This document shows positions 4,436-49,300 of a stretch of 64,000 nucleotides of DNA, piece after piece (the first letter of the stretch is position 1; each line of letters opens with the position of its first letter). The DNA lies in assembly GCF_014640075.1 (NCBI RefSeq), contig NZ_BMGG01000002.1:248001-312000 (forward strand), in the 5' to 3' direction. Under the pieces are notes generated by a model. The model worked only from the letters and a program-made list of their open reading frames with translations, was not told the DNA's origin and did no database searches. The stretch comes from Chelatococcus reniformis. Lineage in GTDB: Bacteria; Pseudomonadota; Alphaproteobacteria; Rhizobiales; Beijerinckiaceae. The position numbers and the translations under genes are program-made.

Positions 4436-4448
4436 GGCGTGAAAGTCC

Positions 4449-7057: not shown

Positions 7058-7220
7058 GGTGAGCGTCGGACCTATCAGCTTTTTCGGCACACGATAGTGA
7101 AAATCAGCAAACCCGCGCTCAGCATGTGGAAAGCGTCGCGCCGGCCACGCCCCTTGTCCTGGGGGCCATCAGGACCTATGCCGCCGTAGTAGCAGATCAA
7201 GAAGAGATGAGGAGAGGGCT

Positions 7221-27765: not shown

Positions 27766-29118
27766 TCAACCTGCGGCCTGCGGATGGCTTGTTTCGGTGA
27801 AGAAGCGGTTGCTCGGGCGCGGCAGCCCCAGATTCTCGCGCAGGGTCCGTCCCTCGTAGTCGAGGCGGAACAGCCCGCGCCGCTGCAGCTCCGGCACCAC
27901 CTTGTCGACGAAGTCGTCGAGCCCCTCCGGCAGATAGGGGAACATGACGTTGAAGCCGTCGCAGGCCTCCGTCATCAGCCACTCCTCCATGCCGTCGGCG
28001 ATGGTCTGCGGCGTGCCGACGAAGGCCAGGCCGGCATAGCCGCCGAGGCGCTGCGCCAGCTGCCGCACCGTCAGGTTGTCGCGGCGCGCCACCTGGATCA
28101 CCCGGTCCTGCGCGCTCTTGCTCGCGTTGCTCGGCGGAACCTCCGGCAGCGGGGCGTCGGGATCGAACGCCGAGGCGTCGTGGCCGAGGGCAATCGATAG
28201 GGCGGCGATGGCGCTGTCGTAGTGGACCAAGCTGTCGAGCTTGAGACGCTTGGCGCGCGCCTCGGCGGCCGTCTCGCCGACCACGACGAAGGCGCCGGGC
28301 AGGATCTTCAGGTGATCGCGGTCGCGGCCGAGCCTTGCCATGCGCCCCTTGACGTCCGCGTAGAAGCGCTGCCCGTCGGCCAGGCTGCCGCCGGCGCCGA
28401 AGATCACCTCCGCCGTCTCGGCGGCGAGTTGCTTGCCGGCCTCGGAGGCGCCGGCCTGCACGATGACCGGCCAGCCCTGGATCGGTCGCGCCACGTTGAG
28501 CGGGCCGCGCACGGAATAGTAGGGGCCCTTATGGTTCAGCACGTGCATCTTGGCGGGGTCGAAATAGATGCCCGTCTCCATGTCGCGGACGATGGCGTCG
28601 TCGGCGAAGCTGTCCCAAAGGCCTGTGACGACATCGTAGAATTCACGAGCCCGGCGGTAGCGCTCGTCGTGCCCGACATGGTCATCGAGGCCGAAGTTGA
28701 GGGCCGCGTCCGGGTTCGAGGTGGTGACGATGTTCCAGCCGGCGCGGCCTTCGCTCAGGTGATCGAGCGAGGCGAATCGGCGGGCCAGGTGATAGGGCTG
28801 CTCGAAGGTGGTGGAGCCGGTGGCGATGAGCCCGATGTGCTCGGTGACCGCGGCGAGCGCCGGCAGCAGCGTCGGCGGATCGAACGAGGTGACCGTATGG
28901 CTCCGCTTCAGCGCCTCGATGGGCATGTTGAGCACGGCCAGGTGGTCGGCCATGAAGAAGGCATCGAACTTGCCGCGCTCGAGCTTCTGCGCAAATGCCT
29001 TGAGATGGCGGAAATTGAAGTTCGCGTCCGGATAGGCGCCGGGATAGCGCCAGGCGGCGGTGTGGATGGTCGTGGGCCGCATGAAGGCGCCGAGGTGAAG
29101 TTGACGGGCTGAGGCCAT
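27766..29118 (-). CDS. Flavin-dependent monooxygenase, NtaA/SnaA/DszA family (luciferase-like)
   Basis: A 450-residue LLM-class oxidoreductase. It opens LHLGAFMRPTTIHTAAWRYP and continues KFDAFFMADHLAVLNM, then RFASLDHLSEGRAGWNIVTT, the signature of the nitrilotriacetate/dibenzothiophene-sulfone/pristinamycin monooxygenase group. These use FMNH2 from a partner reductase and O2. The frame remains open far upstream, but that is a shadow of the binding-protein gene; ATG 29118 with AGGTGA before it is the natural start. It follows a sulfonate-type binding-protein gene by 134 bp. I infer oxidative breakdown of an imported organosulfur or amine compound. No flavin reductase gene is adjacent. Confidence 0.9.
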   Translation of the reverse strand: MASARQLHLGAFMRPTTIHTAAWRYPGAYPDANFNFRHLKAFAQKLERGKFDAFFMADHLAVLNMPIEALKRSHTVTSFDPPTLLPALAAVTEHIGLIATGSTTFEQPYHLARRFASLDHLSEGRAGWNIVTTSNPDAALNFGLDDHVGHDERYRRAREFYDVVTGLWDSFADDAIVRDMETGIYFDPAKMHVLNHKGPYYSVRGPLNVARPIQGWPVIVQAGASEAGKQLAAETAEVIFGAGGSLADGQRFYADVKGRMARLGRDRDHLKILPGAFVVVGETAAEARAKRLKLDSLVHYDSAIAALSIALGHDASAFDPDAPLPEVPPSNASKSAQDRVIQVARRDNLTVRQLAQRLGGYAGLAFVGTPQTIADGMEEWLMTEACDGFNVMFPYLPEGLDDFVDKVVPELQRRGLFRLDYEGRTLRENLGLPRPSNRFFTETSHPQAAG

Positions 29119-29252
29119 GGGATCACCTGAAGGGCTCTGCCGAGCGGCCCTTCCGCCACGCGCGCGGAGGACGCCGGCCCGGCGGCGCTGCGCCGCCGGT
29201 GAAGGCTGCGGCGGATGTAAGCAACGCCGCGGCCCATTGGAAGGTCGGAGCC

Positions 29253-30239
29253 TTAACTGGGCGGCTGCCAGATCCGCGCGGCAGAGGTGTCGATCCGCTT
29301 GGGAATGAGACCGTCCTTGGTGAAGGCATCCGCAATCGTCTGCTGTTCGGTGAGGCCCGCCCGGGTCACTGGGCCCACCGCATAGGAGCGGTGGCTGTTG
29401 GCCTCCTCGATGGTCGCGGCATCGATGCCCCACAGCCCGGCCAGCAGCTTGGCGGCCTCGGCCGGATGCTGCTTGACCCAGAGGCCGGTCTCCTTGAGCT
29501 TGGCGAAGGTCACGGCGAGCGCCGCGCCGCGCTTGTCCTGCGTCGCCGCCGAGGTCAGGTAGTAGCGCTTGTAGCTGGCGAGCCTCTCGCCGTCGGCGAG
29601 TATCCTGGCGTCGGTCTGCCGCCTGGCGCTGGTCAGGAACGGGTCCCACGCCACCCAGGCATCCACGTGGCCACTGACGAACGCTGCCCGGCCATCGGCC
29701 GGCGGCAGATAAGCCGGCCTGATGTCGGCGAAGCTGAGGCCCTTGCTGGCTAGCGCGGCGAGCAGCAGGAAGTGGCTGCCGGCCCCCTTGGTCACGGCCA
29801 CCCGCTTGCCCTTCAAATCTGGGATCGCAGCGATCGGCGCATCCTTCGCCACGAGGATCGCCTGGGCCGCCGGGGAGGGGCCCTCTTCGGCAACGTAGAC
29901 CAGGTCGGCCCCCGCCGCCTGGGCGAAGACCGGCACGGTGTCGGCGACGTCGGCGCTGAAGTCCACGTTCCCGAGGTTGAGCGCCTCCAGCAGCGGCAGG
30001 CCGCTGGTGAACTCGTGCCAGCTGACCTTGGTGCCGAGCGGCGCCAGCGCCTTCTCCAGTTCCCCGTTGGCCTTCAGGATGGCGATCAGCGTGGACGATC
30101 TCTGAAAGCCGATGCGAAGCGTGTCGGCTGGCTGGGCGGCGGCGGTGGTTACCAAAGCGAGGGCGACGGCAAGCGTGCCCAGGATCGTCCGCAGGCCCGT
30201 CAGCGCCCGCGCGGCTGTCGCCGATCGGCGCTCGTTCAT
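29253..30239 (-). CDS. Sulfonate-type ABC substrate-binding protein (SsuA-like)
   Basis: A 328-residue periplasmic binding protein. The signal peptide runs to about AAA|QP (residue 35). The mature part begins TLRIGFQRSSTLIAILKANG, followed by VSWHEFTSGLPLLEALNLG and VDFSADVADTVPVFAQAAG, the standard opening of aliphatic sulfonate binding proteins. ATG 30239 was chosen; the frame is open to a GTG at 30320, which would spoil the signal peptide. No permease or ATPase gene is adjacent. With the monooxygenase gene downstream it suggests sulfur scavenging. The ligand itself is not shown. Confidence 0.88.
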   Translation of the reverse strand: MNERRSATAARALTGLRTILGTLAVALALVTTAAAQPADTLRIGFQRSSTLIAILKANGELEKALAPLGTKVSWHEFTSGLPLLEALNLGNVDFSADVADTVPVFAQAAGADLVYVAEEGPSPAAQAILVAKDAPIAAIPDLKGKRVAVTKGAGSHFLLLAALASKGLSFADIRPAYLPPADGRAAFVSGHVDAWVAWDPFLTSARRQTDARILADGERLASYKRYYLTSAATQDKRGAALAVTFAKLKETGLWVKQHPAEAAKLLAGLWGIDAATIEEANSHRSYAVGPVTRAGLTEQQTIADAFTKDGLIPKRIDTSAARIWQPPS

Positions 30240-30367
30240 GTGCTGAAAAGTCAACGTGCCGCTCCTGGAGCATAGGGCCGCCCGCCCGGGCCCGCCGCAT
30301 CGTCGCAGAGCATCTTCCACGGCCCCAGAGGTGTCGATGAGACAGACTTCCGTTCTTGCATGCTCAT

Positions 30368-30464: not shown

Positions 30465-33400
30465 TCAGGGTCGACGCCGGGAAAGCAACGTGGCGGCGAA
30501 TGCCTGAAGGTCAGGGGGGACGACGCTGGCCGGTTCGATGCCCGCCGACAAAGGCACACTCAGGTGCCAGTTGGTTTGAAACCGGAACGCACCAAAATCT
30601 TCGTCGACGATACTGGGAATATCGAGCGTTCCGGTCGGGCAGGGCTCTGGATCGAAAGGAGCGCCCAGGCCGACCTGGCCGTACGCGCCCTGAAATGTTG
30701 CAGAGTCGAAGCGAAAGTCGAGATGCGAATAAACGAAGGCGCCGCTCGTCGTAAGCGAGATAAGCGGGTGTTCAAGGAGCCGTCGGACCGATTTCAGGCG
30801 AGAGAAGCGGGGATTGGCGGCTTGTCCCGGCAATCCCCGTTCGGACAAATCGGTGCCGATCTCCCCGAGATCGCATTGAACTTGAAAGGATCCGTCGCGC
30901 GACGTGATCCGGGCGAGCCGCTTGTTGAAGCCATACAGGTTGACGCCGATCCATACGGGTGCAATCTCGTCAAGAAAAAGATGCGGCATATAATTGAATG
31001 GGCCGCCGCTTGGAGCATTAATACTGTTCTGTTTTACAAAAGGTATAAGCTCAATTACCTCATGATATCGCATGCCGCCAATCGGGACAAAGCCGGGACG
31101 AACATTTTTCTGGCGGCTGAACAGAAATACGATTGGATGCCGACGCCTTGACGATGCCTCCGGCCCGAGGCCAAGCGGCGGGTCGAGAGCCAGCCCCGCC
31201 GGCAGCAAACGCTGTACAGCGTCAGAGTCGCGCCAGATGGTGACACAATAGCCCTCCATCGAGCCAACGCCACCGGCGGCGCCGGCTTTCAGTTGTTTGA
31301 GAAGGCTGACGACCGGCAGCAACGTGACGGGAATAGGGATTCTGCCGGAGTTGCCGAAACCTGGAATGGACATGCTCCCTCCTGTTATCGCTCTTGCCGT
31401 CGCTCGGCCCGACATGACCGCGGCTTCAATGCAGCCGGCGTCTAATCCGGTCCGGACCCAGTCGCCCGCGAGAAATAGATTGGAAACTCCGGTCCCATCC
31501 GGCCAAAGGCGTGAGCGGAGACTGCCGGGTGTCGACAGCACATATCGCTCCCACGGATTTATATTTACCCGCACGTATTGAGCGTCGAGGCGAGCCGCGC
31601 CGGCCGTCCCTGGAGGAGCCTGGAGCAGCCCCCAATTGAAACCCGAACCGCAGGCATCGCGGGCATTCGGCCAGAGCACCGGCAGTTGCCGGTTCATCCA
31701 AGGCACGATCGCCGCTTTGGCCCTCTCGATCTCGGCCTTGGGGAACTGAGGATAGGGCGACGGCGGAGGGATGACCTCCGCATCGGGGAAAACGCCCACA
31801 AAATAGGCCAACGACCGCGCGATCCGCCCGCCGCCGGCATATTCGGCTGCGAGCAGCGGCGTATTGTCTTGCCACGACTGGAGAGGCGAATGGCTCCAAT
31901 CCCTACGCTCATCCCCAAAGCCAACCAGAACGGTTCCGGGGTCGTGCCAGCCAAGTTGTGCGGTCTCCTTGTTCAGCCAGAGTTGCACGGCCAACGTCTG
32001 GGTGGTCTTGACCTCGTCGAGGCACCTGCCCCAGGTGTCTGGATAAAAGTCCCGAAGCTCGTGGCAAATCGAATGAAGTCCTCCGAAACCGGTTCCGAGG
32101 ATCGCGATGTCGAAGGTGTCGATGGCCGAACCCTGAACGTCGGGGGATCGCAGGCGCAACGTGACCTCGTTGTTCGTGCCGGCCCAATCGGTCCACGCCG
32201 ACTCCAGGTCATGCCCCTCCAACAGGTGGCCATTTTTTATTTGAGAATAGTCAGGATGAATTGGCCAACTCTTGAAGTCGCGTCCCGGTACATCGATCAA
32301 CGGCTCGTATTCGGCTCGCGGGTCCTTGAGGTCGACCTGGCGGCTGAGCGCAACTCTCTCGATCCTGCTTCCGTCGGACGATAGGTGAAGCGCATCGAGT
32401 CTATGGAAAAAATTGAACTTCACCTTCCGCCCGCAAAGATACTTGTAAAGTGGGGCGAATAGAAAATCGGCCATCGGCTCGCGCAGGGTATAGAAGATCG
32501 AGCCCTTATGGGTCAACAAGAGCCGAAGTAGTGCGAGCGTGCCGACACCTGCACTGACCTCCCGGATTCCTTTAACGTAGCCAAAGACATAGTCGTAGCA
32601 TCCCCGAACGATCGCCGACTCCAAACTGTCCTGGCGGCAGCCGTTCTGCTTCATCCACGCGGACCACTCCAGATCGTCGATGGCGTCGAATCCGCTCGAC
32701 AACACGTCGGCGGACAGGAGTCCTTGGATGAGCCCACCGGCCAAGTCGTAAAGGATGTCGAAACGACGCGCCTCATCACCGTCGGGAGCGGCGCCGACCG
32801 CGCTAGTGACCTGCCTGCGGAAGGCCCCGACAAGCCTGTCCCTATCGCCGGCCTCGATTTTCGCGGGTTCCGCAGCGGACCGGTCCAGCAATGCCGCTAT
32901 GGCGGACAAAGGCGTTGGAAAGACGACGTCATGCGGCACCCCCATGACCGCGGCGATCTCCCGGTGCATGCTCACTTGAGCGTTCGGCTCCAGGAACTGC
33001 GCGAGCGGAGAGTTGAGAAAGCTCTCCTCCACCCAAGTCAGGAGTGTTCTCAGGAGGGTGACCGGGGCAAAGCCGCCATTCCCGTCGATACCCGGATCCC
33101 GGGCGTTCGGGCGCGCGCTCAGCAGCCAGGGCTTCCATACGCCGTCGACGAGCTCCATGGCGGTGAAGTGGTTCAGGCCTTCGAATTTTTCGCGCCATTC
33201 ATCGTTCGGACGCCCGAGGCGCGCGTAGAGCCGCTGCACCAAATCGAAGGAGTTGTCATAAAATCCGGCCCAGACATGAAGGCCGTGCTCGAGCGCGCGG
33301 CAATCTCTATGCGCATCTCGACCGACCAGGCATTTGCCTCCGAGGCGCCAGCCGAGCGTATAGATGGCAATATCGTAGCGCGTCTGCTCCGGATCCTGCT

Positions 33401-33473
33401 CGGTCAGTTCAAAAGCAGCGGTGAGGGCGGCGATACCGCCGCCGAAGATTGCAACGCGTGTCCTTTGCATCAT
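30465..33473 (-). CDS. FAD-dependent oxidoreductase (phytoene desaturase-like) fused to an acetoacetate decarboxylase-like domain
   Basis: A 1002-residue protein. Residues 1-700 are an FAD/NAD(P)-binding amine-oxidase-type fold: RVAIFGGGIAALTAAFEL at the start, LGWRLGGKCLVGRD, EHGLHVWAGFYDN, and near 665-695 LFLAGDWVRTGLDAGCIEAA, as in phytoene desaturase and HpnE-like enzymes. From about residue 735 a second domain matches acetoacetate decarboxylase: DSDAVQRLLPAGLALDPPLG, then PHLFLDEIAPVWIGVNLYGF directly followed by NKRLARI, whose Lys aligns with the Schiff-base lysine. Met701 has its own AGGAGGGAGC upstream, so the second domain may also be made alone. ATG 33473 follows GAGGGAGG. It is the last gene of the operon, 13 bp after its paralogue. 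The pathway is unknown. Confidence 0.82.
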   Translation of the reverse strand: MMQRTRVAIFGGGIAALTAAFELTEQDPEQTRYDIAIYTLGWRLGGKCLVGRDAHRDCRALEHGLHVWAGFYDNSFDLVQRLYARLGRPNDEWREKFEGLNHFTAMELVDGVWKPWLLSARPNARDPGIDGNGGFAPVTLLRTLLTWVEESFLNSPLAQFLEPNAQVSMHREIAAVMGVPHDVVFPTPLSAIAALLDRSAAEPAKIEAGDRDRLVGAFRRQVTSAVGAAPDGDEARRFDILYDLAGGLIQGLLSADVLSSGFDAIDDLEWSAWMKQNGCRQDSLESAIVRGCYDYVFGYVKGIREVSAGVGTLALLRLLLTHKGSIFYTLREPMADFLFAPLYKYLCGRKVKFNFFHRLDALHLSSDGSRIERVALSRQVDLKDPRAEYEPLIDVPGRDFKSWPIHPDYSQIKNGHLLEGHDLESAWTDWAGTNNEVTLRLRSPDVQGSAIDTFDIAILGTGFGGLHSICHELRDFYPDTWGRCLDEVKTTQTLAVQLWLNKETAQLGWHDPGTVLVGFGDERRDWSHSPLQSWQDNTPLLAAEYAGGGRIARSLAYFVGVFPDAEVIPPPSPYPQFPKAEIERAKAAIVPWMNRQLPVLWPNARDACGSGFNWGLLQAPPGTAGAARLDAQYVRVNINPWERYVLSTPGSLRSRLWPDGTGVSNLFLAGDWVRTGLDAGCIEAAVMSGRATARAITGGSMSIPGFGNSGRIPIPVTLLPVVSLLKQLKAGAAGGVGSMEGYCVTIWRDSDAVQRLLPAGLALDPPLGLGPEASSRRRHPIVFLFSRQKNVRPGFVPIGGMRYHEVIELIPFVKQNSINAPSGGPFNYMPHLFLDEIAPVWIGVNLYGFNKRLARITSRDGSFQVQCDLGEIGTDLSERGLPGQAANPRFSRLKSVRRLLEHPLISLTTSGAFVYSHLDFRFDSATFQGAYGQVGLGAPFDPEPCPTGTLDIPSIVDEDFGAFRFQTNWHLSVPLSAGIEPASVVPPDLQAFAATLLSRRRP
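31373..31387 (-). promoter_or_regulatory. Internal ribosome-binding site and in-frame ATG at the domain junction
   Basis: Read on the minus strand, AGGAGGGAGC directly precedes an in-frame ATG (31373-31371) at residue 701, where the oxidoreductase domain ends and the decarboxylase-like domain is about to begin. Initiation here would give a 302-residue protein holding only the second domain. The bases also encode a natural GGS linker, so chance is possible. Confidence 0.4.
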
Positions 33474-33486
33474 CTCCGGCCCTCCC

Positions 33487-35820
33487 TCACGGTGGATGGC
33501 GCGGCATGCCGCCGACCGAACTCGGCGCGCTGCCTTCCCATGCCGCGTCGACAAGAGCTTCCCACAGCAGCATCGCGCCCTCCGCCACAAGGCTGAGCGG
33601 AGCGGGTAGGCCGTCGCCAAATCTCAGGAAGTCCTCGCCTGGAATGGCGAAGCTGGTCCCTGAGATGGCGCGGGCCGCCTGCATGCCGGAGATGACCGCC
33701 GTCTCGATGCATTCGGTGTTGAAGCCGCTGTCAATCCAAGCGCCGGCGAGGTAGAGATGGCCGAACCCGGAGGCGTCGGTCGCCAGACGCCATCGCGTCG
33801 AGCCGGCGGCCGAGGCGACGCAGCAACTCGACGGATCGACGTTCGCCTGACACACCTGTGCGTCGATGCGGTCGGACCCTGCGGCCCCGTCGGGGTCGAA
33901 CAGAACGGTCCAATCAAAATATCCGTGCGGACTTGTTCCCGGCCAAATACAGCGAGCCTTTCTGCTGAACCAATCGATCGCCTCGGAGCGCGCGCGCGCC
34001 TTGGCATCCGCGGGAACGTGACCTTCTTCGGGAGGGGCGCGGTACAGTTCGCACGCAAACGCGTCGCAAAGATACTGGAGCGATTCCGGCCCAACGGGGC
34101 CGGAGCCGTAGGGCTCGAACTGCAGGACCTGCGACATGTCGGCCCAGATGCCGAGCGGATCCGGTCCGGTCGAGATGACCGTTTTCTCCGGTGCGTCCGG
34201 CGGCACCGCCCCTTCGGGCGGCCATCGGAATCCGGCCGTCGGGACGCTGCACCATGCCTGAACCGAAATGCTCGGAACCAGGGTTGCCGTCTCGGTCATT
34301 GCACGGAACTGCGCATTGGCTTCGATGAGCGCGTCGCAGGGTCCTGGCGCCGCATTCAGCTTCTTGAAGGCGCCGAGGGGAACGGCGAGGATGACATTGT
34401 CGAATTCACGGCCCTGCCGGAGCATGACCTTGCCGACGGAATGAGTGCACCAATGCGATTCAAGATCGATGTTCTGCGTCGCGAGTTGTTCGCCGCAGTG
34501 GATCTGGTCCCATAGTGGCCGGCTTGGCCAGGATTGGAGGAACCCGTTGCCGGGGCCGGGAGCGATCGTCGGGATGTATTCTCCGCTTATCAGATTGACC
34601 TGCCGATCAAATTCGATCCACTCCACGGCGGTTTTGGAGGGGTCCAATGCAATGCGGTTCATTTTCATGAAGAATTGAAATTTGACTCCACGTCTCTTCA
34701 AGACCTCGTATATCGGCACGACGACGACCTCGCCCATTCCCGATTGCATCTCGAATGCGAACGCGCCCCTGTAGGTGCCGTACAGGCGAATGACGGCCTG
34801 GGTGGCCGTTCCGGCGCCGTAGCTCGGGCGCCGCTTGTCCCCCTCGCAGTATTGAAGCATGGAATCATAGAGCGCCTGCACGATCGGCGAGCCATAGATC
34901 GAGCTCCGATCCGCTCCGCAGACCGCAAGCCATTCGCGGAAATCCATGAGGTCGAGATCGCCGACGGTGGCGCCCCCAAGCATCATGTCGACGACGACGC
35001 CCTTGATCGCGGCCGTCCCCACATCGATAAGTTGAGCGAGGAAGTTTCCGGAAGGCCGCTTCACGAAGGCTTCCGTGTCGAGTGCGGCCCTTGCAAAGCT
35101 TCGGATCACGCTGATGAAGGCTCGGAGCTGAGCTTCGTTCCGGAGCCTGTCGTTTGCAGCGAGCATCCCTGCCCAGTCACTCGCGAGCTCAAGCACTCTT
35201 TCGGCTTGAATCGCAAGCGACCGCTCGCCCCGTCCGGCTTCCGCCGATGCCGACGTGGCATATTTCGAGGCGTCGACGCCTGCGAGCCGCAGAAGCGCGA
35301 TCGTAGTGGTGCCGAGAATCGGGTCGGGAGGAAGGGAATCGGCGAATTCACCAGGGGGTGCAAGCTGACGGAAGAACTCCTGCATGACATGGAGCATTTG
35401 TGAGAACGATGAGAACGCCGTGAGGTCGGGGGCGCTAACGCCTGGCGTGCCATCGATGCTGGGCCACCGCAGGCCAATAATCTCCGGCCGGTCCCCGGCG
35501 CCGATCGCGGAATTGCATTGGGGCTTCAGAGCGTCATCGGAACACACGATCTTCTGGTCCGCCAGGGGCTCCCACTCCTCGTAGGCTGCCCTCAGCATGC
35601 GGAATGCATTCTCGTAGCAGCCGAACCAGATATGCAGACCGTGCTCGACGACGCGGCCGCGCTCGTCGCGGCCTGTCGCGCCTTTCCCTCCGAGGCGCCA
35701 GCCCATCTGGTAGATCGTGATGTCGAAGCGCTCCCGCTGTTCAGCGCGCTGGGTCAGCTCAAAGGCGGCAGTGAGCGCGGCCATGCCGCCGCCGACGATC
35801 GCGATTCGTTGCCGTGTCAT
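33487..35820 (-). CDS. FAD-dependent oxidoreductase (phytoene desaturase/HpnE-like), paralogue
   Basis: A 777-residue protein with the same oxidoreductase domain as the next gene: RIAIVGGGMAALTAAFELTQ, then YQMGWRLGGKGATGRDE, VVEHGLHIWFGCYENAF and, near residue 720, LYLAGAWIDSGFNTECIETA. It lacks the decarboxylase-like domain. At 777 residues it is clearly longer than typical 480-550-residue phytoene desaturases, with extra helical sequence around residues 130-340. The ATG at 35820 has GGAG before it, 24 bp after the cyclase gene stop; it ends 13 bp before its paralogue. Family members oxidise or isomerise isoprenoid or other hydrophobic substrates, but no substrate can be named. Confidence 0.83.
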   Translation of the reverse strand: MTRQRIAIVGGGMAALTAAFELTQRAEQRERFDITIYQMGWRLGGKGATGRDERGRVVEHGLHIWFGCYENAFRMLRAAYEEWEPLADQKIVCSDDALKPQCNSAIGAGDRPEIIGLRWPSIDGTPGVSAPDLTAFSSFSQMLHVMQEFFRQLAPPGEFADSLPPDPILGTTTIALLRLAGVDASKYATSASAEAGRGERSLAIQAERVLELASDWAGMLAANDRLRNEAQLRAFISVIRSFARAALDTEAFVKRPSGNFLAQLIDVGTAAIKGVVVDMMLGGATVGDLDLMDFREWLAVCGADRSSIYGSPIVQALYDSMLQYCEGDKRRPSYGAGTATQAVIRLYGTYRGAFAFEMQSGMGEVVVVPIYEVLKRRGVKFQFFMKMNRIALDPSKTAVEWIEFDRQVNLISGEYIPTIAPGPGNGFLQSWPSRPLWDQIHCGEQLATQNIDLESHWCTHSVGKVMLRQGREFDNVILAVPLGAFKKLNAAPGPCDALIEANAQFRAMTETATLVPSISVQAWCSVPTAGFRWPPEGAVPPDAPEKTVISTGPDPLGIWADMSQVLQFEPYGSGPVGPESLQYLCDAFACELYRAPPEEGHVPADAKARARSEAIDWFSRKARCIWPGTSPHGYFDWTVLFDPDGAAGSDRIDAQVCQANVDPSSCCVASAAGSTRWRLATDASGFGHLYLAGAWIDSGFNTECIETAVISGMQAARAISGTSFAIPGEDFLRFGDGLPAPLSLVAEGAMLLWEALVDAAWEGSAPSSVGGMPRHPP

Positions 35821-35844
35821 GCAAGTACTCCGCGCGTTCGGTCC

Positions 35845-38800
35845 TCACACTGACAATGCCCTGCGGACGGCAGCAAGATCGGGCTGGGCACCTACACCTT
35901 CAAAAATGTCGGCAGCTCGGCTGAGAGTTGACGACCTGTCCGGATCGTCGTGGGACTTCGTCTGGCCGATCTGATACAGGGCGAGGCCGAGCTCGCGCGG
36001 CATCCGCAGTTCCTTCGCCGCCTGCGCGGCAGCGTTCCAGAGGCGTTGCGCTTTGGCCGGCCGGCCCGCGAGAAGCGCGGAGCGCCCCCCCAACAACAAG
36101 GCCTGTGGCCGGCAGACGGGAGACATTCTGGTGGCTCGCGCCGCGTGCCGGCACGCGAGCAATGCACGCGTTTGCGCGGCCGGGCCGACATTCCGGCCGT
36201 CCTTCTCCTCGGCCCACCTCGCCAGAAGGACCTCCGTCACGCCCACCACTCCATAGACGTAGCTGCCCCAGACAACATCCACCTCCTGAAGAACGGCAAG
36301 ACCGCGCTCGGCCGCCTCCATGGCGTCCGCCGTCTCCTGCCGCTGCAGAAGGGCCGAAGACAAAATCCCAAGGCAAAGCAGTCGATCGGCGCGGCCCATC
36401 CGGACCTGGGAGAGGTCATTGAGCTGCCGCAGCTGCGCCGTGTCTGTCCGACCGCGCATCAGATTGAGCAATGCGGTCGCCGCCGCGTGCCATGCCGCTG
36501 CCTGGCGCGTCGACTCGGACGAAACCATCGTTTCCAGATCCGACAGCAGCGTTTCCGCGGTTCCCAGATCGCCACGAAAGATCGATGAAAAGGCCAGGAT
36601 CGTCACCGGCGCATGCCAGCGGGACCGGTCACCCAGCTGACGGTAGAGCGAAAGCGCGCGTCGCGCGCAACGCTCCGTGAAGTCCCAGTCGCCCATGCCG
36701 TAGCCGAAGACCGCGGCGAGGAGGTGCGCCCGGGCCGCGACAGGCAAGCTGTCCACCTCGTCGGCGACGCGCAGGGCGCGTGCGCAATAGAAGCGCCCGA
36801 TGCGGTGCAGTCCGGACATTCCGAGGCCCAGCCCCAGCGCGCTATAGCCGCTGACGGCTTCGGTCGTGGCGCCGCAGCGCTCGGCCAGATTGAGCGCAGA
36901 GAGGGTCTCGTCGAGGACTGCCAGTGACTCATTCAAAAAGAAATGCCGTTCCGCCAGCCGCTCGCGCATGTGCGCCGTCCGCTGGAGCGTCCGCAGATCA
37001 ACGGCCGGGCGTCCCGCCAGCCGCGGGGCCCAGGCCCGCATGCGGATTTGGCGGGCCACGTTGGTCATCACCCGCGCGAGCCGACCCGCAGGCCCTCGTG
37101 GAGAGGTCTGATGCAGGAAGGCCATGGCCCGGCCATAGTGGAGAAACGCTTCCTCATAGTCCGCCAGCTCGTTGTTGGCGTCTCCGAGGATTTCCTCCCA
37201 TTCCGATAGGCGGGCGTCGTTGTCCACGGTCCGACTGCCTTCGGTCAGACCATAGGCTCGTTCGATGTAGCGTATGGCGTCCCGGTTCGCATGGCTCCTC
37301 AACGCCTGCCTTGCCGCAAGCTCGAAGTAACCGATGGCGCGATCGCTCTCGGCTGCGTGTTCCCAATGTTGTGCGAGCTGAGAATAATAGGGCTCCAACC
37401 ATTGAGAATGTTGGCGCTCGATTGCGACAGCGATCAACTTATGAAGCGTGACACGCTGTGCCAGCGACAGAAGCCTATACGTGACCTCCTGGCCAATGGC
37501 GTGGCGAAACGAGTAGCGGGGTGCCGATCCGTCGTCCTCCATCAAGAGAAAGTCCTGCTCCATCAGTTGGCGGAGCATGGCCTTGATGTCCGTCAGAGCC
37601 GTCTTCCTCGGATAGACCGCGATCGCGGTCTCGGCGGTGAAAGTTCCGCCGATTGCGCTCGCGGCCTTCAGCAAGAGCTGGGTTTCGAGGGGAAGTGCAT
37701 CGACACGACTGACGATCGCTCCCTCGAGACTTGCGGGCAGCGATCGTTTTGCCGGGTCGTCCAGATCAGCCAATACCTCGCAAACACCCCGAGCCACGGC
37801 AACTGCCCCGGTATCGCGCAGCGCGAGCGCGAGTTCCTCGCAATGGAACGGGTTCCCTTCACTGTGTTGATAGACAAACTTCACCAGACGCTCCGGAAGC
37901 TCGCTGGCGCGCAGCTTTCGGCGAATGAGTTCCTCGATCGCGCGCTCGGACATCGCGGAGAGGCTGATCTCGATGCCATGACCGAGCTCGTCTGCGGGCC
38001 CGGCACGGGCCGGGGCGGAAGCGGCAGGTCGGCGGCTCGCAACCAACAGCAGACGGGGCAACTTCCGGGCGACGGCGGCCAGGAGGTGAATAGACGCGCT
38101 GTCGAACCAGTGCAGGTCTTCAAAGATCAATGCGCCCGGGGCCTGCTCACGTTCGGCAAGCAGCGCAATGGTTAGGGCTTCAAGACAGGCGGCCCTTGCC
38201 GAGCCGGTGATCTGACTGGTCAGCGCGGTTTCGGTAAGATCGATGTTGATGATCTCGCGCAGCAAGGGTAACCATGACGCGAGCATTTCATCGTGCTTCA
38301 GCCTTTCCTCGGCAATCCGCCGTGTCTGTTCGGGCGAATCCCCGCCGAGGATTTCGTGGATGACGCCTCGCCACGCAAAATACGGCGTCGATTTGTCAAT
38401 TGCAGTCGCGAAGCCGCGCAAGACCCGGTATTTCTGCGCCCTGGCAAATTCCGCGAGATCGTCGAGAAGAATGGACTTGCCGATGCCCGGTTCGCCTTGA
38501 ACGATGATCGCACCGCCCTGTCCCCGTTGTAGCGCATCGCGAAGCTGACGTCGTTCGTCCTCCCGACCGACGATCTCGCTATCGCCATGGTCGCGACTGC
38601 CTGTTGAGACGGTCACGGGGCGAAATGCTGCCACATGGGGTTCAATCCCTTTGACCTGCTGCGGGGGCAGAACAGAGAAGCTGACGCGATCCCGAACTGC
38701 CGTCGCCGTTGCGGCGTCGCAAAGGATGTCGCCAGCTGCCAGCTCCATCAGTCGCGCGGCAATATTGATAGCCGGGCCGATAAGGCAATATTCACGGCGC

Positions 38801-39873
38801 CGCTCTCCACCGTAATCTCCACAGAATAACTTGCCCGACGCAATGCCAATCGACGTCCTCACGCCCGCGGCTTTGAGCTGCCTGGCTATGGCAAGACCGG
38901 CCTCGATGCCTCGTTGCGGGTCTTCTTCATGCGCCAATCGCGGAACGCCAAAGGCGAGAAATATGCTGAAACCCTTGTCATCCATCAGGACTTTGTGGAC
39001 CACGCCATCAAATCTATGGGCGACGCGCTGGATCTCTAGAACTGCAGCCTGAAGTATTTTCGCAAAGGTTTCGTCAAAGGAGAGATCGACCAATTGAATG
39101 TACACGATCGTTACATTACGAAACTCGGCCAGCCACGTTCGCTCGCCGAGGCGCAGATGATCGACGACAAAGCTGGGAATTAGCTCTTCAATATTGAGAT
39201 CGGCTGGCATCTGGCCAGCAGGCATTTGGGACGGCAGTATATCTTTCCGCATCCTGTCGAGGATGAATAGTCCGTTGGAAAATATACCTTCGCAATGATG
39301 TCGGACGACATTGTGCAATGCGCTGCACAGCACCACGTCGCCGACTTTTGCCTTCCGGTATGCATCGCCCAACCGCTCAAACGGCGATCCGACAACAACG
39401 AAGCACCACTGACCGTAAAGGCCGCCCAGTTTGCAGCGATGAATTTCACCGATATCAGTCGAGATGCGCAAGTGAAGTTTCTGCGCCGACCCCGCCCGCT
39501 CGTTCATCTCGCGTTTCAGCGCCAGAGCGCACTGGGCCGCAAGTCGGGCCGCCTCATCCATCTCGAATGCATCGTCCCAGACTGCCAGTATTGCGTCCCC
39601 GGCAAATGCGATTATATCTCCCCCGTATCTGTCGATAATGTCGGTAAGCGGTCCAAAACATTGATTAAGAAGAATTGATACTTCCTCGGCGCCGCCCGGG
39701 CCGTGTCGCGCCATGCGGTTCGTCATCTCGACGAATCCGGCGATGTCCAACAGCAGCACTGCGGCAACCGCAGATTCGACAACGGGTTCGTTGAAAGGGA
39801 AGCGGCGGCCTCCGCGTGCGGTCCTAACCCATCTTGGAACGTATGCGCTGACGTCCCCCGTGAGTCTGTCCAT
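35845..39873 (-). CDS. Soluble adenylyl cyclase-like protein: two cyclase domains, AAA ATPase, helical repeats
   Basis: A 1342-residue protein laid out like mammalian soluble adenylyl cyclase. Cyclase domain 1 (about 35-200) has LLLDIAGF (Asp43) and GGDIIAFAGDAILAVW (Asp93), the two metal-binding aspartates. Domain 2 (about 250-430) has VHKVLMDDKGF, SIGIASGKLFCGDYGGERR and CLIGPAINIAARLME with the Asn/Arg of the transition state. A P-loop ATPase follows: GEPGIGKS near 460 and LIFEDLHWFDSAS near 580. The last 480 residues look like TPR-type helices. Two positions that recognise the base in the mammalian enzyme differ: Ala89 for Lys and Cys for Thr before LIG. ATG 39873 has GAGGT upstream. It leads the operon with the two oxidoreductases. 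Cyclase activity is uncertain. Confidence 0.87.
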   Translation of the reverse strand: MDRLTGDVSAYVPRWVRTARGGRRFPFNEPVVESAVAAVLLLDIAGFVEMTNRMARHGPGGAEEVSILLNQCFGPLTDIIDRYGGDIIAFAGDAILAVWDDAFEMDEAARLAAQCALALKREMNERAGSAQKLHLRISTDIGEIHRCKLGGLYGQWCFVVVGSPFERLGDAYRKAKVGDVVLCSALHNVVRHHCEGIFSNGLFILDRMRKDILPSQMPAGQMPADLNIEELIPSFVVDHLRLGERTWLAEFRNVTIVYIQLVDLSFDETFAKILQAAVLEIQRVAHRFDGVVHKVLMDDKGFSIFLAFGVPRLAHEEDPQRGIEAGLAIARQLKAAGVRTSIGIASGKLFCGDYGGERRREYCLIGPAINIAARLMELAAGDILCDAATATAVRDRVSFSVLPPQQVKGIEPHVAAFRPVTVSTGSRDHGDSEIVGREDERRQLRDALQRGQGGAIIVQGEPGIGKSILLDDLAEFARAQKYRVLRGFATAIDKSTPYFAWRGVIHEILGGDSPEQTRRIAEERLKHDEMLASWLPLLREIINIDLTETALTSQITGSARAACLEALTIALLAEREQAPGALIFEDLHWFDSASIHLLAAVARKLPRLLLVASRRPAASAPARAGPADELGHGIEISLSAMSERAIEELIRRKLRASELPERLVKFVYQHSEGNPFHCEELALALRDTGAVAVARGVCEVLADLDDPAKRSLPASLEGAIVSRVDALPLETQLLLKAASAIGGTFTAETAIAVYPRKTALTDIKAMLRQLMEQDFLLMEDDGSAPRYSFRHAIGQEVTYRLLSLAQRVTLHKLIAVAIERQHSQWLEPYYSQLAQHWEHAAESDRAIGYFELAARQALRSHANRDAIRYIERAYGLTEGSRTVDNDARLSEWEEILGDANNELADYEEAFLHYGRAMAFLHQTSPRGPAGRLARVMTNVARQIRMRAWAPRLAGRPAVDLRTLQRTAHMRERLAERHFFLNESLAVLDETLSALNLAERCGATTEAVSGYSALGLGLGMSGLHRIGRFYCARALRVADEVDSLPVAARAHLLAAVFGYGMGDWDFTERCARRALSLYRQLGDRSRWHAPVTILAFSSIFRGDLGTAETLLSDLETMVSSESTRQAAAWHAAATALLNLMRGRTDTAQLRQLNDLSQVRMGRADRLLCLGILSSALLQRQETADAMEAAERGLAVLQEVDVVWGSYVYGVVGVTEVLLARWAEEKDGRNVGPAAQTRALLACRHAARATRMSPVCRPQALLLGGRSALLAGRPAKAQRLWNAAAQAAKELRMPRELGLALYQIGQTKSHDDPDRSSTLSRAADIFEGVGAQPDLAAVRRALSV

Positions 39874-40569: not shown

Positions 40570-42812
40570 TCACGGCTCGCGGGCGAGGATCACTGTCGCC
40601 AGCGGCGGCAACGTCAGCGCCAGCGATTGGTGCTGGCCGTGGCTGGCAATGGTGTCGGTGGTGACGCCGCCCTGATTGCCGACGTTGCTGCCGCCGTAGA
40701 CGGCGGCATCGGTGTTCAGGATCTCCCGGTAGAAGCCTGGCAGCGGCACCCCGAAGCGGTAGCCCTCGCGCGGCACCGGCGTGAAGTTCGACACCACGAG
40801 GACGATCTTGTCCGGGTCCATGCCTTTGCGCGCCCAGATGATCACCGAATTGTCGCGGTCGTCGGACACCAGCCATTGGAAGCCGGCCGGCTCGGTGTCG
40901 CGCTCGTGCAGGGCAGGGTAGTCGCGGTAGACGCGGTTGAGATCCCGCACCAGCGTTTGAACCCCCCGGTGCTCGGGCTGATCGAGCAGATGCCAGTCGA
41001 GGCTGGCGTCGTGGTTCCATTCGCGCTCCTGCCCGAACTCGCAGCCCATGAACAGGAGCTTCTTGCCGGGATGGCCCCACATGAAGCCGAGGTAAGCGCG
41101 CAGATTGGCGAAGCGCTGCCAGGCGTCGCCGGGCATGCGGCCGATGAGCGATCCTTTGCCGTGCACGACCTCGTCGTGGGAGATCGGCAGAACGAAGTTC
41201 TCGGAGAAGGCGTAGAGCAAGCCGAAGGTCAGGTCGTCGTGGTGATAGCGACGATGCACGGGGTCGTAGCCGATGTAGCGGAGAGTGTCGTGCATCCACC
41301 CCATGTTCCACTTGAAGCCGAAACCCAGGCCGCCCGTATAGGTCGGGTGCGAGACACCCGGCCAGGCTGTCGATTCCTCGGCGACGGTGATGACGCCTGG
41401 ATTGTGGCCGTAGGTTACCTCGTTCATGCGACGCATGAAGTCGATGGCGTCGAGATTCTCGTTGCCGCCATAGCGGTTCGGCACCCATTCGCCGGGCCGG
41501 CGCGAATAGTCGAGGTAGAGCATGGAGGCGACTGCGTCGACACGCAGCCCGTCGAGATGGTAGCGCTCGAGCCAGAAGCGGGCGTTGGCGATGAGGAAGC
41601 TCGCGACCTCCTGGCGGCCGAAGTTGTAGATGTAGGTGCCCCAGTCCTGGTGGAAGCCTTGGCGCGGATCAGCGTGCTCGTAGAGATGGGTGCCGTCGAA
41701 CAATGCAAGGCCGTGGGGATCGTTCGGGAAATGCCCCGGCACCCAGTCGAGCAGGATGCCGATGCCCTCCCGGTGCGCCACCTCGACGAAATGCGCGAAA
41801 TCCTCGGGCGTGCCGAAACGGCTGGTCGGCGCGTAGAGCGACACCGGCTGATAGCCCCACGAGCCGTCGAACGGGTATTCGGTGATCGGCAGCAATTCGA
41901 TATGGGTGAAGCCCATGTCCTTGACGTAGGGGATCAGCCGGTCGGCGAGCTCCCGGTACGTCAGGTACCGGTGGCCTTCGTCGGGGACTCGGGCCCACGA
42001 GCCCAGGTGGCATTCATAAATGGTCATGGGCGCGCGACGCGGCTCGGCGCGCGCGCGCGCCGCCATCCATTCGCTGTCGCGCCAGGCGGGCAGCGACGTG
42101 CCGCTCAGCACGGAGGCGGTGGCCGGCGGCCGCTCGGCGGCGAGGGCGACCGGGTCCGCCTTCAGGCGCAGGCCCCCGTCGGCCCCCTTGATCTCGAACT
42201 TGTAGCGCTGCCCGTTGCCGAGCTCCGGCACGAACAGCTCCCAGGCGCCGGCGCTGTGGCGCAGCCGCATGGGATGGACCCGCCCGTCCCAGCCGTTGAA
42301 GTCCCCCACGACGCTGACACGGCGCGCGTTGGGAGCCCAGACCGTGAAGACGATGCCGGCGACGTCCTCGGCGGTGCGCGCATGGCCGCCGAAGACGGCC
42401 GCGACCGCGTCGCCGCCGACGTCCCGCGTGCCGGCGAGATCCGCGTCGCTCCAGACGGGGCCGAAGCGATACGGATCATGGCGGATGACGCTGCCTTGGT
42501 CGGTCTCGACGCGCAGGCGGTAGGCGGGCGTTTCCCGCGCCGACAGCCGCGCAACGAAGAAGCCGGCGTCGTGGCGGCGTTCCATGGCCTTAATGTCGGC
42601 ATCGCGGTCCCGCTCGATCAGCGTGACAGTGCGGGCGCCGGGAAGCAGCACGCGGATCTCCCAAAGCCCCGGGGCGATGCGGTGCGGGCCGAGGACCGAG
42701 AACGGGTCGCCGTGCTCGGCTCGCACCATGGCGTCCACGACCGCCTGGGCCAGCGCCGCTCTCGCGGGGGGCGGCGGCGCAGTTTCGTTGCGAGGCGGTG
42801 CCTGGTCCGTCT

Positions 42813-42816
<4 letters not shown>
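40570..42816 (-). CDS. glgB: 1,4-alpha-glucan branching enzyme
   Basis: A 748-residue GH13 branching enzyme of normal length, which moves an alpha-1,4 segment to an alpha-1,6 branch. An N-terminal CBM48-like beta domain contains VWAPNARRVSVVGDFNGWDG; the barrel has YECHLGSWAR, ELLPITEYPFDGSWGYQ, the nucleophile in DGLRVDAVASM (Asp427), the acid/base in TVAEEST (Glu480) and SHDEVVHGKGS. ATG 42816 overlaps the treS stop by four bases; the upstream frame is a shadow. As last gene of the cluster it branches the linear chains made by GlgE. Confidence 0.96.
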
Positions 42817-46112
<3,296 letters not shown>

Positions 46113-46288
46113 GGAGACCTCGTCGAATGAGGGGCGGCGGCTCCGGTGCGGGTCTGCGCGCTGCCGGCGAATCCGGCTAGGCGAACCCGCTCAGTGACGC
46201 ATAAGGGGAACAAGCTTCCGGGCACAAGAGCGGCGGAAAGGTGCGGAAAACCGGCGCCTTGTCCGCTGCGCCGGCCGCGGCGCAGGGC

Positions 46289-46323
46289 GGCGCCTCAAGC
46301 CGCCGCCGGCGGCTTGAGGCGCC
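46289..46323 (-). terminator. 16-bp perfect hairpin across the glgE stop codon
   Basis: Arms GGCGCCTCAAGCCGCC (46289-46304) and its exact complement (46308-46323) with a 3-base loop. The glgE stop codon (46295-46297) is inside one arm and the last codons (PPAAA) in the other. No T-run follows, so complete termination is doubtful; attenuation or RNA processing between glgE and treS is more likely. Confidence 0.6.
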
Positions 46324-49300
46324 AGACCACGACGGGCCGGCTGTCCGGTTCCAGCGCGATGCGGTGGGTCTTGCCGTAGAGCGTGAAGCTGCCACCCGCC
46401 AACAGATCTTCGGCATCGATCGAGGCGTCGTCGGGCAGGCCGAACTGCCACAGCGGCACCTCGTAGGTGCACTCCTGTCGGTTGTGCGGGTCGAGGTTGA
46501 TCAGCACCAGCACGCAGTCGTCCCGCTCCGGCGTGATGCGGGCGAAGGCCAGGATGTTGTCGTTCCAGGCGTTCAGGAACAGCACGTTGCGGAAATCCTG
46601 CAGCGCCCGGTTGTCGCGCCGGATGGCGTTGAGGCGGGTGATGAAGTCGCGGATGTGGCCGGGCCGGGCCAGGTCCCACGCCTTGATCTCGTACTTCTCG
46701 CTGTTGAGATACTCCTCCCGGCCCGGCAGCGGCTCGGCCTCGCACATCTCGAAGCTCGAATACACGCCCCACACCGATGACAGGAGGGCGCCGAGCGCCG
46801 CCCGCACCCTAAAGCCGGCCGGTCCGCTGGTCTGCAGGTAGAATGGATTGATGTCGGGCGTGTTGACGAAAAAGTTCGGCCGGTAATACTCGGCCATCTC
46901 GCTGGTCGACAACTCGACGATATAGTCGATGATCTCCTGCTTGCCGGTGCGCCAGGTAAAGTAGGTGTAGGATTGCTGGAAGCCGGCCTTGGCGAGGGCG
47001 CGCATCATCTTGGGCCGGGTGAACGCTTCGGCCAGGAAAATCGCGTCCGGGTGCCGGTCGTTGACGCTGCGGATCAACCAGCGCCAGAACGGCAGGGGCT
47101 TGGTGTGGGGGTTGTCGACGCGGAAGATGCGCACCCCCTGGTCGCACCAGAACAGCACGACGTCGCGCAGCGCGACCCACAGCGACGGCAGGCCGGCGCG
47201 GTAGAAGTCGACGTTGACGATGTCCTCGTATTTCTTCGGTGGGTTTTCGGCGTATTTCAGTGTCCCGTCCGGCCGCCAGTCGAACCATTCGGGATGCTGC
47301 TTGATCCACGGATGGTCGGGCGAGCACTGGATGGCGAAATCGAGGGCGATCTCCAGCCCGTGGTCGAAGGCCGCGGCAACGAGGGCGCGGAAGTCCTCGA
47401 TCGAGCCCAGCTGCGGGTGTACCGCGTCGTGGCCGCCGTCGGGCGAGCCGATGGCATAGACACTGCCGACGTCGCCCTCGACGGCCGTCAGCGAATTGTT
47501 CCTGCCCTTGCGATGGCTCGTGCCGATCGGGTGGATGGGCGGGAAATACAGCACGTCGAAGCCCATGTCGCGCACGTAGGGCAGGCGGCCGATGACGTCG
47601 CGGAAGGTGCCGTGGCGCCCGGGGTCGCCGGATTGCGAGCGCGGAAACAGCTCGTACCAGGAGCTGAAACGCGCGGCGAGGCGGTCGCCAATGAGCTCGA
47701 GGGTGGGGTGAGTGGAGAGCTGGGCGCGCTCGGCGTTGCGGGCGACCAGGGCCGCGTTGCGCTCATCCGTCAGGGCGGCGAGCTGCGCCGGCGCGCCGTC
47801 CGCATGCCGCTTCAGCTCGGCGAGCAGGGCGGTCAGAGCTGGCGCGTCCGCGCTGCCGCCGGCAGCCGCCGCGGCGGCTGCGTGCTCGGCCATGTGCACG
47901 CCCTCGATGGTCTCCAGCCGCACGTCCTGCCCGGCGCCGTGCTTGCGCTCCACCTCCCACAGCCAGGAAGCGAAGGGGTCGCGCCAGGCTTCGATCGTGT
48001 AGAGGTAGCGGGTGTTCTCCTCGACCGGGAAGTGGCCGGCCCAGCGGTCGTTGTCGACGAAGGCCATGGGCGCGCGCCGCCACTCCGCCTCAGCGGCCGT
48101 CCGAAAGAGCACCTCGGCGGCGATCTTGTCGTGGCCGTCGCTGAAGATGTCGGCGCTGACCTCGACGACCTCGCCGACGACGCGCTTGACCGGGGTCGCG
48201 CCGCCGTCCACCTGCGGCGCCACGCGCTCGATGATCACGCGGCCGCCGCCGTCGGGCGCTTCGCCTGCGTCCGCCGACCGCGCCGGCTTGGCGGCGCTGA
48301 GCACCACCACCTCACCGGGCGCGAGCACGAGCTGCTGCGCCGCGTCGACGGCCTCGGCTGCGGCCGCCGGTTCGGCGAAGCGCAGGGCCGTGAAGCGCGA
48401 GAAGACGCCGCCGACGCGGCTCATCAGCGGCCCCACGCCGGCATGAGCCTCCTGCCCGCCCGGGTTGGCGACGATGATGGCGACGCTTTCGGCCACCAGC
48501 GGATGGGCGCCCTCGTAGCGGGCCAGCACCAGCAGCGGCTCGTCCGGCGCCGAGAGGCGCACGAGCGCACCCTCCGTATTGAGCGCCGGCACCGTCGGGC
48601 GCAGGCGGTTGAAGGCGCGAATGAAGGCGGAAATGTCGATGCCCGTAGTCTCCGCATCGCCAGGGCGGGTCTCGACCACGTGCAGGGGCCGGCGATAGCC
48701 CCATTCATAGCCGATGGGCATCAGCACGCCGGTCGAGAAGCAGCCGGCCAGCGCATAGCGGAGCTTGAGGTAGCGTGCGATGCCGGCGATGTCGCCGGGA
48801 TCGTGCTCGCTCGCCAGCCGCGCCATGTCGTGGTTCTCGGGAAAGGCGATGGATGGCGCGAGCGTGCGCAGCGCCTGGTACTGCTCGATCGCCCAAGGCT
48901 CGCGCAGGTCCCACCAGGCGAACGAGTTGAAGAGGTAGTCGAAGCCGGCGGCGGCGATCCGCCTGGTCTCGTCGAACGTGCAGCCGAGCGTCTCGGCGGC
49001 GAAGACGGCGGCTCCATCGCGGGTCTTGGCGTCGGCGATCAGCTCGGCCCAGACTTCGGCGGGGACCTTGTAGGCCGCGTCGCAGCGGAAGCCTGTGACG
49101 CCGAGGCCCTGCATATGGGCCACATAGCGCTTCCAATAGGTCAGCAGGTCGGTGCGGGCGGCCTCGTTCTCGTAGTCCAGCTCGGCCAGATCCGTCCACT
49201 CGGTGCGCACGCTCGGATCGACCGGATCGACGGCGAACGGGCTCACCAGCTCGCCGTCCGCGGTCCGCCGGAAGGCATGCGGCAGCTCCTGGGTGAGCAG

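Follow-up and report, generated by a model that had tools for sequence, protein, structure and literature searches.

Human soluble adenylyl cyclase (ADCY10) carries two cyclase domains on one chain, and its ATPase and helical repeats come after them. ATPases of the STAND class with TPR sensors are represented by the solved structure 6mfv and by Apaf-1 and CED-4, and the described enzymes nearest to those considered here are the plant-type phytoene and zeta-carotene desaturases (CrtP/PDS), the hydroxysqualene dehydroxylase HpnE and acetoacetate decarboxylase. Three minus-strand genes in the window, by which we mean the whole 64-kb stretch of DNA analyzed, bring relatives of all these proteins together. 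The operon is best read as a horizontally acquired sensor-enzyme module, in which a STAND cyclase reports on a compound that flavoenzymes and an acetoacetate decarboxylase (ADC)-like domain make or modify, and we give this reading about an even chance of being correct. A literature search, judged by titles and the openings of abstracts, returned no description of this gene set.

The operon and its cyclase-ATPase protein

The order, strand, lengths, and spacing of the three genes are as the original prediction described them. The first gene, cyc (35845–39873), encodes 1342 aa counted from an ATG, within an open frame that extends to 39960. It is followed by ox1 (33487–35820), identified from its reading frame, Pfam and NCBIfam as a 777-aa FAD oxidoreductase of the phytoene desaturase/HpnE superfamily, and by ox2-ADC (30465–33473), for which the same sources and the fold indicate a 1002-aa FAD oxidoreductase fused to an ADC-like domain. 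The gaps are 24 bp (35821–35844) between cyc and ox1 and 13 bp (33474–33486) between ox1 and ox2-ADC. A promoter and terminator scan detected no terminator-like site in either gap, which is weak evidence because the scan gave no more terminators in the region as a whole than in shuffled sequences.

The reading frame, Pfam, alignment to ADCY10, a structural model and Foldseek together identify cyc as a two-cyclase STAND ATPase with a TPR-like superhelix. Pfam reports Guanylate_cyc and AAA_16, and the match to ADCY10 (E = 3.6 × 10−30) bears out the predicted likeness to soluble adenylyl cyclase. Both metal-binding Asp positions of the first cyclase domain, C1 (39325–39789, minus strand), and the Lys, Asn, and Arg of the second, C2 (38641–39141, minus strand), are retained in cyc and align with those of the human enzyme. 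Among 16 double cyclases, cyc included, the two C1 Asp residues are conserved in every one and the purine-site Lys of C2 is present in only three, cyc among the keepers, which may mean that another nucleotide is used or that the role of C2 is chiefly structural. In the cyclase at locus L118, a motif search detected no C1 Asp motif and no Asn/Arg motif. Overall, cyc looks able to make cyclic AMP. Unlike ADCY10, it has Ala and Gly at the C1 positions of the bicarbonate-site Lys and Arg, and neither residue is retained in any of the 16 double cyclases; bicarbonate sensing by cyc was rejected on these residues.

The AAA_16/STAND NTPase domain (38047–38574, minus strand; Pfam, motif search, and Foldseek) contains a Walker A motif, GEPGIGKS, and a Walker B motif, LIFEDLHW. 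The predicted sensor is a helical-repeat, TPR-like region (35848–37395, minus strand) recognized from the AlphaFold2 model (mean pLDDT 87.4) and Foldseek; Pfam reports no TPR family within it. The best PDB match of the cyc model is 6mfv, a STAND-TPR protein (E = 1.0 × 10−11), and the next is Apaf-1. In its model, cyc has the arrangement of a STAND protein: an NTPase of the AAA/NACHT type, which carries the Walker motifs, precedes a superhelical predicted sensor. The fold of the C-terminal 911 residues and the two motifs are shared with 6mfv, Apaf-1, and CED-4, whereas the output part of cyc, a pair of cyclase domains, is not.

The flavoenzymes and the ADC-like domain

The two oxidases are paralogues that agree in 243 (31%) of the 793 columns of their alignment, and Pfam NAD_binding_8 and Amino_oxidase score above cut-off in both. 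The model of ox2-ADC has a flavin amine-oxidase/desaturase fold, ox1 being placed by Pfam alone, and the best fold match of ox2 is rice PDS (5mog, E = 8.6 × 10−16), in agreement with the phytoene-desaturase fold suggested previously. This fold match and a similarity in N-terminal motif link it to the plant-type phytoene and zeta-carotene desaturases, but the identity of the oxidase to plant-type PDS is just 14%. Against the NCBIfam phytoene desaturase family TIGR02731 the oxidases score 29.0 bits (ox2) and 28.8 bits with a cut-off of 569.4, and ox2 reaches 45.6 of the 622.15 bits set for zeta-carotene desaturase. At oxidase position 38, where an acidic residue is usual, Gln is found in 37 of 44 sequences and Glu in none. 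The top NCBIfam match of both oxidases is HpnE (TIGR03467), at 63.7 and 61.1 bits against a cut-off of 283.05; unlike HpnE, whose profile has 430 positions, the two proteins are longer, paired, and associated with an ADC-like domain.

The ADC-like domain of ox2 (30471–31325, minus strand) scores 26.1 bits against the 29.8-bit gathering score of Pfam PF06314. Its fold matches 3cmb (E = 5.7 × 10−8), and Lys851 (codon 30921–30923, minus strand), invariant in all 17 aligned ADC-like domains, aligns with a lysine of solved acetoacetate decarboxylases (best E = 1 × 10−4), the Schiff-base lysine. The decarboxylase-like domain predicted on the second oxidoreductase is therefore backed by fold and conserved lysine, though it falls below the Pfam cut-off and, unlike acetoacetate decarboxylase itself, is fused to a flavoenzyme. 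The domain was not found in nine of 85 loci. An acetoacetate decarboxylase family protein and an FAD-dependent oxidoreductase with distant locus numbers are both listed for the lipid droplets (cyanoglobule) of Anabaena in a 2026 paper (PMC12923008). A link to the ox2-ADC family was not adopted, given those locus numbers and no stated connection to it.

Origin and conservation of the neighborhood

The three genes are poorer in GC (0.60–0.63) than ten flanking genes (0.67–0.72), and the difference is wider at third codon positions (GC3 of 0.69–0.75 vs. 0.85–0.91). Codon use also sets them apart, in a comparison where the flanking genes were measured against a pool containing themselves, which lowers their distance. 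The best matches of the operon proteins are in Bradyrhizobium, at 61–64%. The operon was probably acquired horizontally, as had been guessed from its lower GC. No clean empty site was found, because the genomes G001 and G021 carry glgB in another gene order. The best matches of glgB, which lie on plasmids, place the host as an alphaproteobacterium; no 16S gene was detected in its own genome.

The oxidase and a cyclase-AAA protein recur as neighbors. Within the ox1 clade (19 tree rows, SH-aLRT 99; 23 loci counted), a cyclase-AAA protein adjoins the oxidase in 15 loci and another signaling protein in five (L029–L031, L033, and L034); the three loci that show no signaling gene (L026, L032, and L036) all end upstream at contig ends. 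A second sample comprised 14 relatives from a whole-genome search that ignored neighbors, a weak short match (G022, E = 9.8 × 10−4) being excluded. A cyclase-AAA gene lies at the oxidase/ADC block in five of them (G271, G592, G617, G693, and G1222, the last with one carotenoid-oxygenase gene in between), an AAA/TPR gene with a cut N-terminus in one (G016), and another signaling gene in four (G286, G295, G392, and G784), while four have no adjacent signaling gene (G553, G566, G876, and G1088). The neighborhood is conserved across genomes, so the possibility raised with the original prediction, that homologs of these genes are almost never neighbors, does not hold.

Signaling genes are concentrated next to the block, at 50 of 159 genes of rank 1 and 35 of 147 of rank 2 compared with 20 of 423 at ranks 4–8, in a scan with local HMMs that favors oxidase-adjoining genes because its seeds came from such genes. 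Later loci were scanned with the HMMs already fixed, but three members of the 14-relative set (L018, L020, and L021) had supplied seeds. Genes were called mechanically, as open frames, in every locus, and the cyclase-neighbor counts refer to the best 80 of 503 relatives. The enzyme-sensor pairing ranges from Bradyrhizobium to planctomycetes, across several phyla. In place of a cyclase-AAA protein, most of the wider oxidase family adjoins some other signal protein: a kinase, a 7TM sensor, a TIR protein, or a winged-helix/TPR protein. The constant core is the flavoenzyme with the ADC-like domain, whose partner may be a STAND cyclase, a STAND kinase-histidine kinase, a 7TM sensor kinase, a TIR protein, or a winged-helix protein. 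No signaling gene lies within two genes of the block in 15 of 85 loci, including eight from Duganella/Pseudoduganella, of which L079 is cut on one side and the other seven have at least seven ORFs on each side.

Substrate, sensing, and direction of control

In the sensor-enzyme module that we favor, ox1, ox2, and the ADC-like domain would synthesize or alter a lipophilic compound that most likely derives from isoprenoids. The TPR superhelix of cyc would bind a ligand tied to this chemistry, be it substrate, product, or a partner protein; binding would switch the AAA ATPase, which in turn would activate the paired cyclase domains to produce a cyclic nucleotide, most likely cAMP. As originally predicted, cyc may instead control the oxidoreductases; it would then respond to an external cue, and the cyclic nucleotide that it makes would turn on their expression or activity. 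The upstream, co-directional, closely spaced cyc in the window and in Bradyrhizobium is consistent with such regulation, as are the winged-helix/TPR regulators adjoining the block in L021, L033, and L034. However, the signaling gene may also lie downstream (L020, L065, and L066), between the oxidase and ADC genes (L118), or in divergent (L087) or convergent (L117 and L126) orientation, and a diffusible second messenger has no specificity for adjacent genes. The swapping of unrelated signal proteins beside the same enzymes fits substrate or product sensing at least as well as enzyme regulation, to which we assign a minority share of the probability.

The gene neighbors suggest a lipophilic substrate, probably an isoprenoid, and so lend indirect backing to the hydrophobic or isoprenoid substrate proposed earlier. 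A polyprenyl synthetase is encoded near the oxidase in four loci (G286, G553, G566, and G592), an RPE65/carotenoid oxygenase gene follows it by 23 bp in G1222, and a FadL/TodX-type channel adjoins the block in Roseomonas, Azospirillum, a planctomycete, and G693, four lineages in all. Isoprenoid genes are confined to five loci, and the window has none. When 139 flanking proteins were tallied by Pfam, the L018 polyprenyl synthetase not being among them, the 25 commonest of 153 families included none for isoprenoids; FadL occurs in three proteins and short-chain dehydrogenases in three. A TonB receptor family, defined by clustering with one member recognized by Pfam, adjoins the block in 14 Pseudoalteromonas/Alteromonadaceae loci; a 745-aa Pseudoalteromonas neighbor considered as a lipoxygenase proved to be a TonB receptor.

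These FadL/TodX channels and TonB receptors might instead belong with enzymes that catabolize or detoxify an environmental hydrophobic compound, the sensor merely reporting its presence. But the transporters reveal neither the direction nor the nature of their cargo, and, the short-chain dehydrogenases aside, the 25 commonest flanking families include no catabolic set. We consider catabolism or detoxification somewhat less likely still than regulation.

A role in anti-phage conflict, with a STAND sensor, a cyclase output, and enzymatic effectors, is suggested by the STAND architecture of cyc, by the TIR protein that Pfam finds in L101 and the TIR-like protein recognized in L018 by eye and with a local model, which have similar 620–664-aa partners, and by matches of PADLOC Pycsar cyclase models to cyc. 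A PADLOC scan of cyc, ox1, and ox2-ADC found no Pycsar effector adjacent to the cyclase, and neither oxidase matches any PADLOC family at E 0.01. The hits are limited to the cyclase domains of cyc and reflect the common domain only, and polyprenyl synthetase and carotenoid oxygenase neighbors do not fit, so this reading was set aside as weak and is improbable. Chance association of unrelated genes is very unlikely: the whole operon is compositionally foreign, so a single transfer could explain close copies, but the genome holds just two cyc-like proteins (cyc included, E 1 × 10−10), the pairing recurs in varied gene orders in distant lineages, and the paired oxidases, judged by eye, branch alike.

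Through the recurrent pairing of desaturase-like flavoenzymes and an ADC-like domain with STAND cyclases and other sensors, the ligand of a bacterial STAND cyclase resembling soluble adenylyl cyclase would become accessible to genetics, as would a lipid or isoprenoid product. Such neighborhoods hint that a fatty or isoprenoid compound is sensed or made by a route not yet described. CqsA and CqsS are a known synthase-receptor gene pair. By analogy, and only tentatively, the enzymes might be the synthase, and the signaling gene the receptor, of an unrecognized lipophilic, isoprenoid-derived signal in several phyla.

The operon and its surroundings

The three genes lie where the original prediction placed them, all on the reverse strand: cyc, which codes for the 1342-residue two-cyclase STAND ATPase, starts with an ATG at 39873 (39873-35845), followed by the oxidoreductase gene ox1 (35820-33487) and by ox2-ADC, which starts at 33473 (33473-30465) and carries an acetoacetate-decarboxylase-like (ADC) domain. 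ox1 and ox2 are paralogues, 31% identical. The codon-usage distances of the three genes (0.37-0.46) exceed those of ten flanking genes (0.07-0.19), and GC3 likewise separates them from the flanks. Two genomes of the same genus gave no match. Among the matches listed, the best within the family reach 32-38% across long stretches (in genome G617, 54% across 107 residues), below the 61-64% of the Bradyrhizobium matches.

Relatives are rare among the genomes searched. They were found in at least 3 of 41 near genomes at E 1e-3, with one match weak and short; the wider searches gave at least 5/398 (phylum), 7/298 (family), 3/385 (class) and 3/274 (another class); the centre genome is counted in each figure, and often few candidates were scored per genome, so these are lower bounds.

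A glycogen/trehalose set (40570-58563, reverse strand) with GlgB, TreS-maltokinase, GlgE-type and further alpha-amylase family proteins adjoins the acquired operon. Directly downstream (27766-30320, reverse) are an NtaA/DmoA-type FMN monooxygenase and an NMT1-like substrate-binding protein; a transaldolase-phosphoglucose isomerase fusion is found at 17953-20955 (reverse).

Signalling genes around the oxidoreductase block

A contig scan of genomes gave at least 503 relatives, the best 80 of which, with 5 more, make up the 85 loci compared, several genera being represented many times. Counting outward from the block of oxidase and ADC genes in these listed loci, signalling genes fill 50/159 positions at rank 1, 35/147 at rank 2, 11/133 at rank 3 and 20/423 at ranks 4-8; averaged by genus, their share falls from 0.42 at rank 1 to 0.02-0.06 at ranks 4-8. 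For cyclase genes the counts are 15/159 at rank 1 and 0/423 at ranks 4-8. A signalling gene is the immediate neighbour in 48 of the 85 listed loci and at most two genes away in 70. Among the 15 with none within two genes, a contig end lies within a few genes in L026, L032, L036, L090, L095 and L100; those without a nearby contig end are L055 and eight Duganella/Pseudoduganella loci (L041, L048, L049, L051, L054, L079, cut on one side, L082 and L092).

Within the ox1 clade, 15 of 23 loci among the matches listed carry a cyclase protein (L022-L025, L027, L028, L035, L037-L040, L042, L044, L068, L087), split into two open frames in L027 and L040; in L068 the mechanical frame of this protein and the opposite-strand oxidase overlap. 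The closest relatives among the matches listed, Bradyrhizobium L022 and L023 (61-62%), share the gene order of the operon. Three loci, all Azospirillum (L029-L031), have a kinase-AAA-histidine kinase instead, in L033 and L034 a winged-helix/TPR protein stands on one side while the other is cut, and in three (L026, L032, L036), cut upstream, no signalling gene was seen. L023, L030, L031, L034 and L037 were assigned to the clade by similarity, because the oxidase tree was thinned to 92 of 111 oxidases. Two oxidase frames occur in 22/23 ox1-clade loci (L042 is cut) but in only 2/62 other listed loci, and the paired oxidases branch alike by eye.

A second set comprised 14 relatives from whole-genome searches blind to neighbours, a weak match in G022 being left out. 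The block adjoins a cyclase-AAA gene in five (in G1222 with one carotenoid-oxygenase gene intervening), an AAA/TPR gene with a cut N-terminus in one, and another signalling gene in four. No adjacent signalling gene was found in G553, G566, G876 and G1088; the contigs of G553, G566 and G1088 span only 8.1, 7.4 and 5.0 kb, G1088 has a response-regulator gene one gene further out, and G876 has no signalling gene in 19.9 kb.

In L101 (1-8272) and L018 (6507-17902) the oxidase block is flanked by TIR-like proteins and 620-664-residue proteins with a GxTGHR motif; Pfam confirms the L101 TIR domain, followed by AAA just below cut-off. Two Acidobacteria (L060 9158-9862; L096 15964-16668) encode alike 234-residue proteins, sigma-factor-like by eye, adjoining Ser/Thr kinases beside the oxidase.

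The enzymes and their likely substrate

In fold, the ox2-ADC model (mean pLDDT 86.5, from 67 sequences) most resembles rice phytoene desaturase (E 8.6e-16); for the C-terminal domain the match is acetoacetate decarboxylase (E 5.7e-8). Neither ox1 nor ox2 reached any curated cut-off listed for the PDS, ZDS, HpnE and PPOX models. All 44 aligned oxidases share GGK, EHG.H, G.Y and a C-terminal E; directly after the second strand, 37 of the 44 have Gln and none has Glu. The ADC lysine is invariant in 17/17 aligned domains. Separate or fused, an ADC-like domain occurs in 76/85 loci among the matches listed, none being found in L019, L021, L039, L042 (cut), L045, L067, L074, L091 and L097. In L119 a 1147-residue open frame (4006-7447), without any match in a Pfam search, has four stretches matched by the local ADC model, and its neighbours are a polyprenyl synthetase and an oxidase.

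Judged from gene neighbourhoods, the substrate is likely an isoprenoid. In G286, G592 and G566 (Pfam) and in G553 (BLAST) a polyprenyl synthetase neighbours the oxidase, with both Asp-rich motifs visible by eye in the three inspected; the G592 stretch also carries a saccharopine-dehydrogenase-like gene, an ADC gene and a cyclase-AAA gene. In G1222, a genome from a different class within the phylum (L126 7608-18959), two oxidase genes around an ADC gene are followed by a carotenoid oxygenase (RPE65 match, E 7.9e-125) and a convergent double-cyclase-AAA gene. Next to the block, FadL/TodX genes were identified by Pfam in Roseomonas, Azospirillum and a planctomycete, and by BLAST in G693. Against these neighbours, a flanking tally (139 proteins, one locus per genus) has FadL in 3, and its 25 commonest families out of 153 include none for isoprenoids; the tally lacked the L018 polyprenyl synthetase, which an antisense frame had displaced. 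Hence the reading is graded as likely.

The cyclase protein and a working model

The best solved relatives of cyc are human ADCY10 structures (E 3.6e-30), matched across both cyclase domains. In this alignment the first domain has both metal Asp and the second has the Lys, Asn and Arg. Of the 16 double cyclases compared (cyc and those of 15 linked loci), all retain both Asp, 11 retain Asn, 12 Arg and 3 the purine-site Lys, with no letters aligned at Asn/Arg in L038 and L068 and poor alignment there in L040. None of the 16 has the bicarbonate Lys or Arg. Walker A and Walker B are intact in cyc. The model of its C-terminal 911 residues is good (mean pLDDT 87.4, from 16 sequences), and among solved chains it comes nearest to a STAND protein that carries a TPR sensor (E 1.0e-11); Apaf-1 and CED-4 rank next.

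The same genome has one further cyc-like protein on another contig, 27-29% identical to cyc. This second double-cyclase-AAA protein (L123 3036-13110, contig C11) is divergent from a 1916-residue fusion of GMC oxidoreductase, alpha/beta hydrolase (below the Pfam cut-off) and PhoD-like phosphatase, another case of a cyc-type cyclase adjoining a flavoenzyme. In L118 (4533-8390) a cyclase-AAA gene lies between the oxidase and ADC genes; its cyclase part may be inactive, since a motif search detected no first-domain Asp motif and no Asn/Arg motif.

Cyc probably works in steps that accord with the established behaviour of STAND proteins and of class III cyclases: a ligand would bind the TPR sensor, which would set the ATPase switch and thereby the cyclase. 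In the original prediction the cyclase/ATPase protein senses or regulates the oxidoreductase reaction; control of the enzymes by this protein is possible. Across loci the enzyme core is constant and the signalling protein varies, a pattern that fits a sensor for something linked to the enzymes better than a single fixed control circuit. Listings from searches of open-access papers contained no account of these genes together as one conserved module; every part is a member of a known superfamily.
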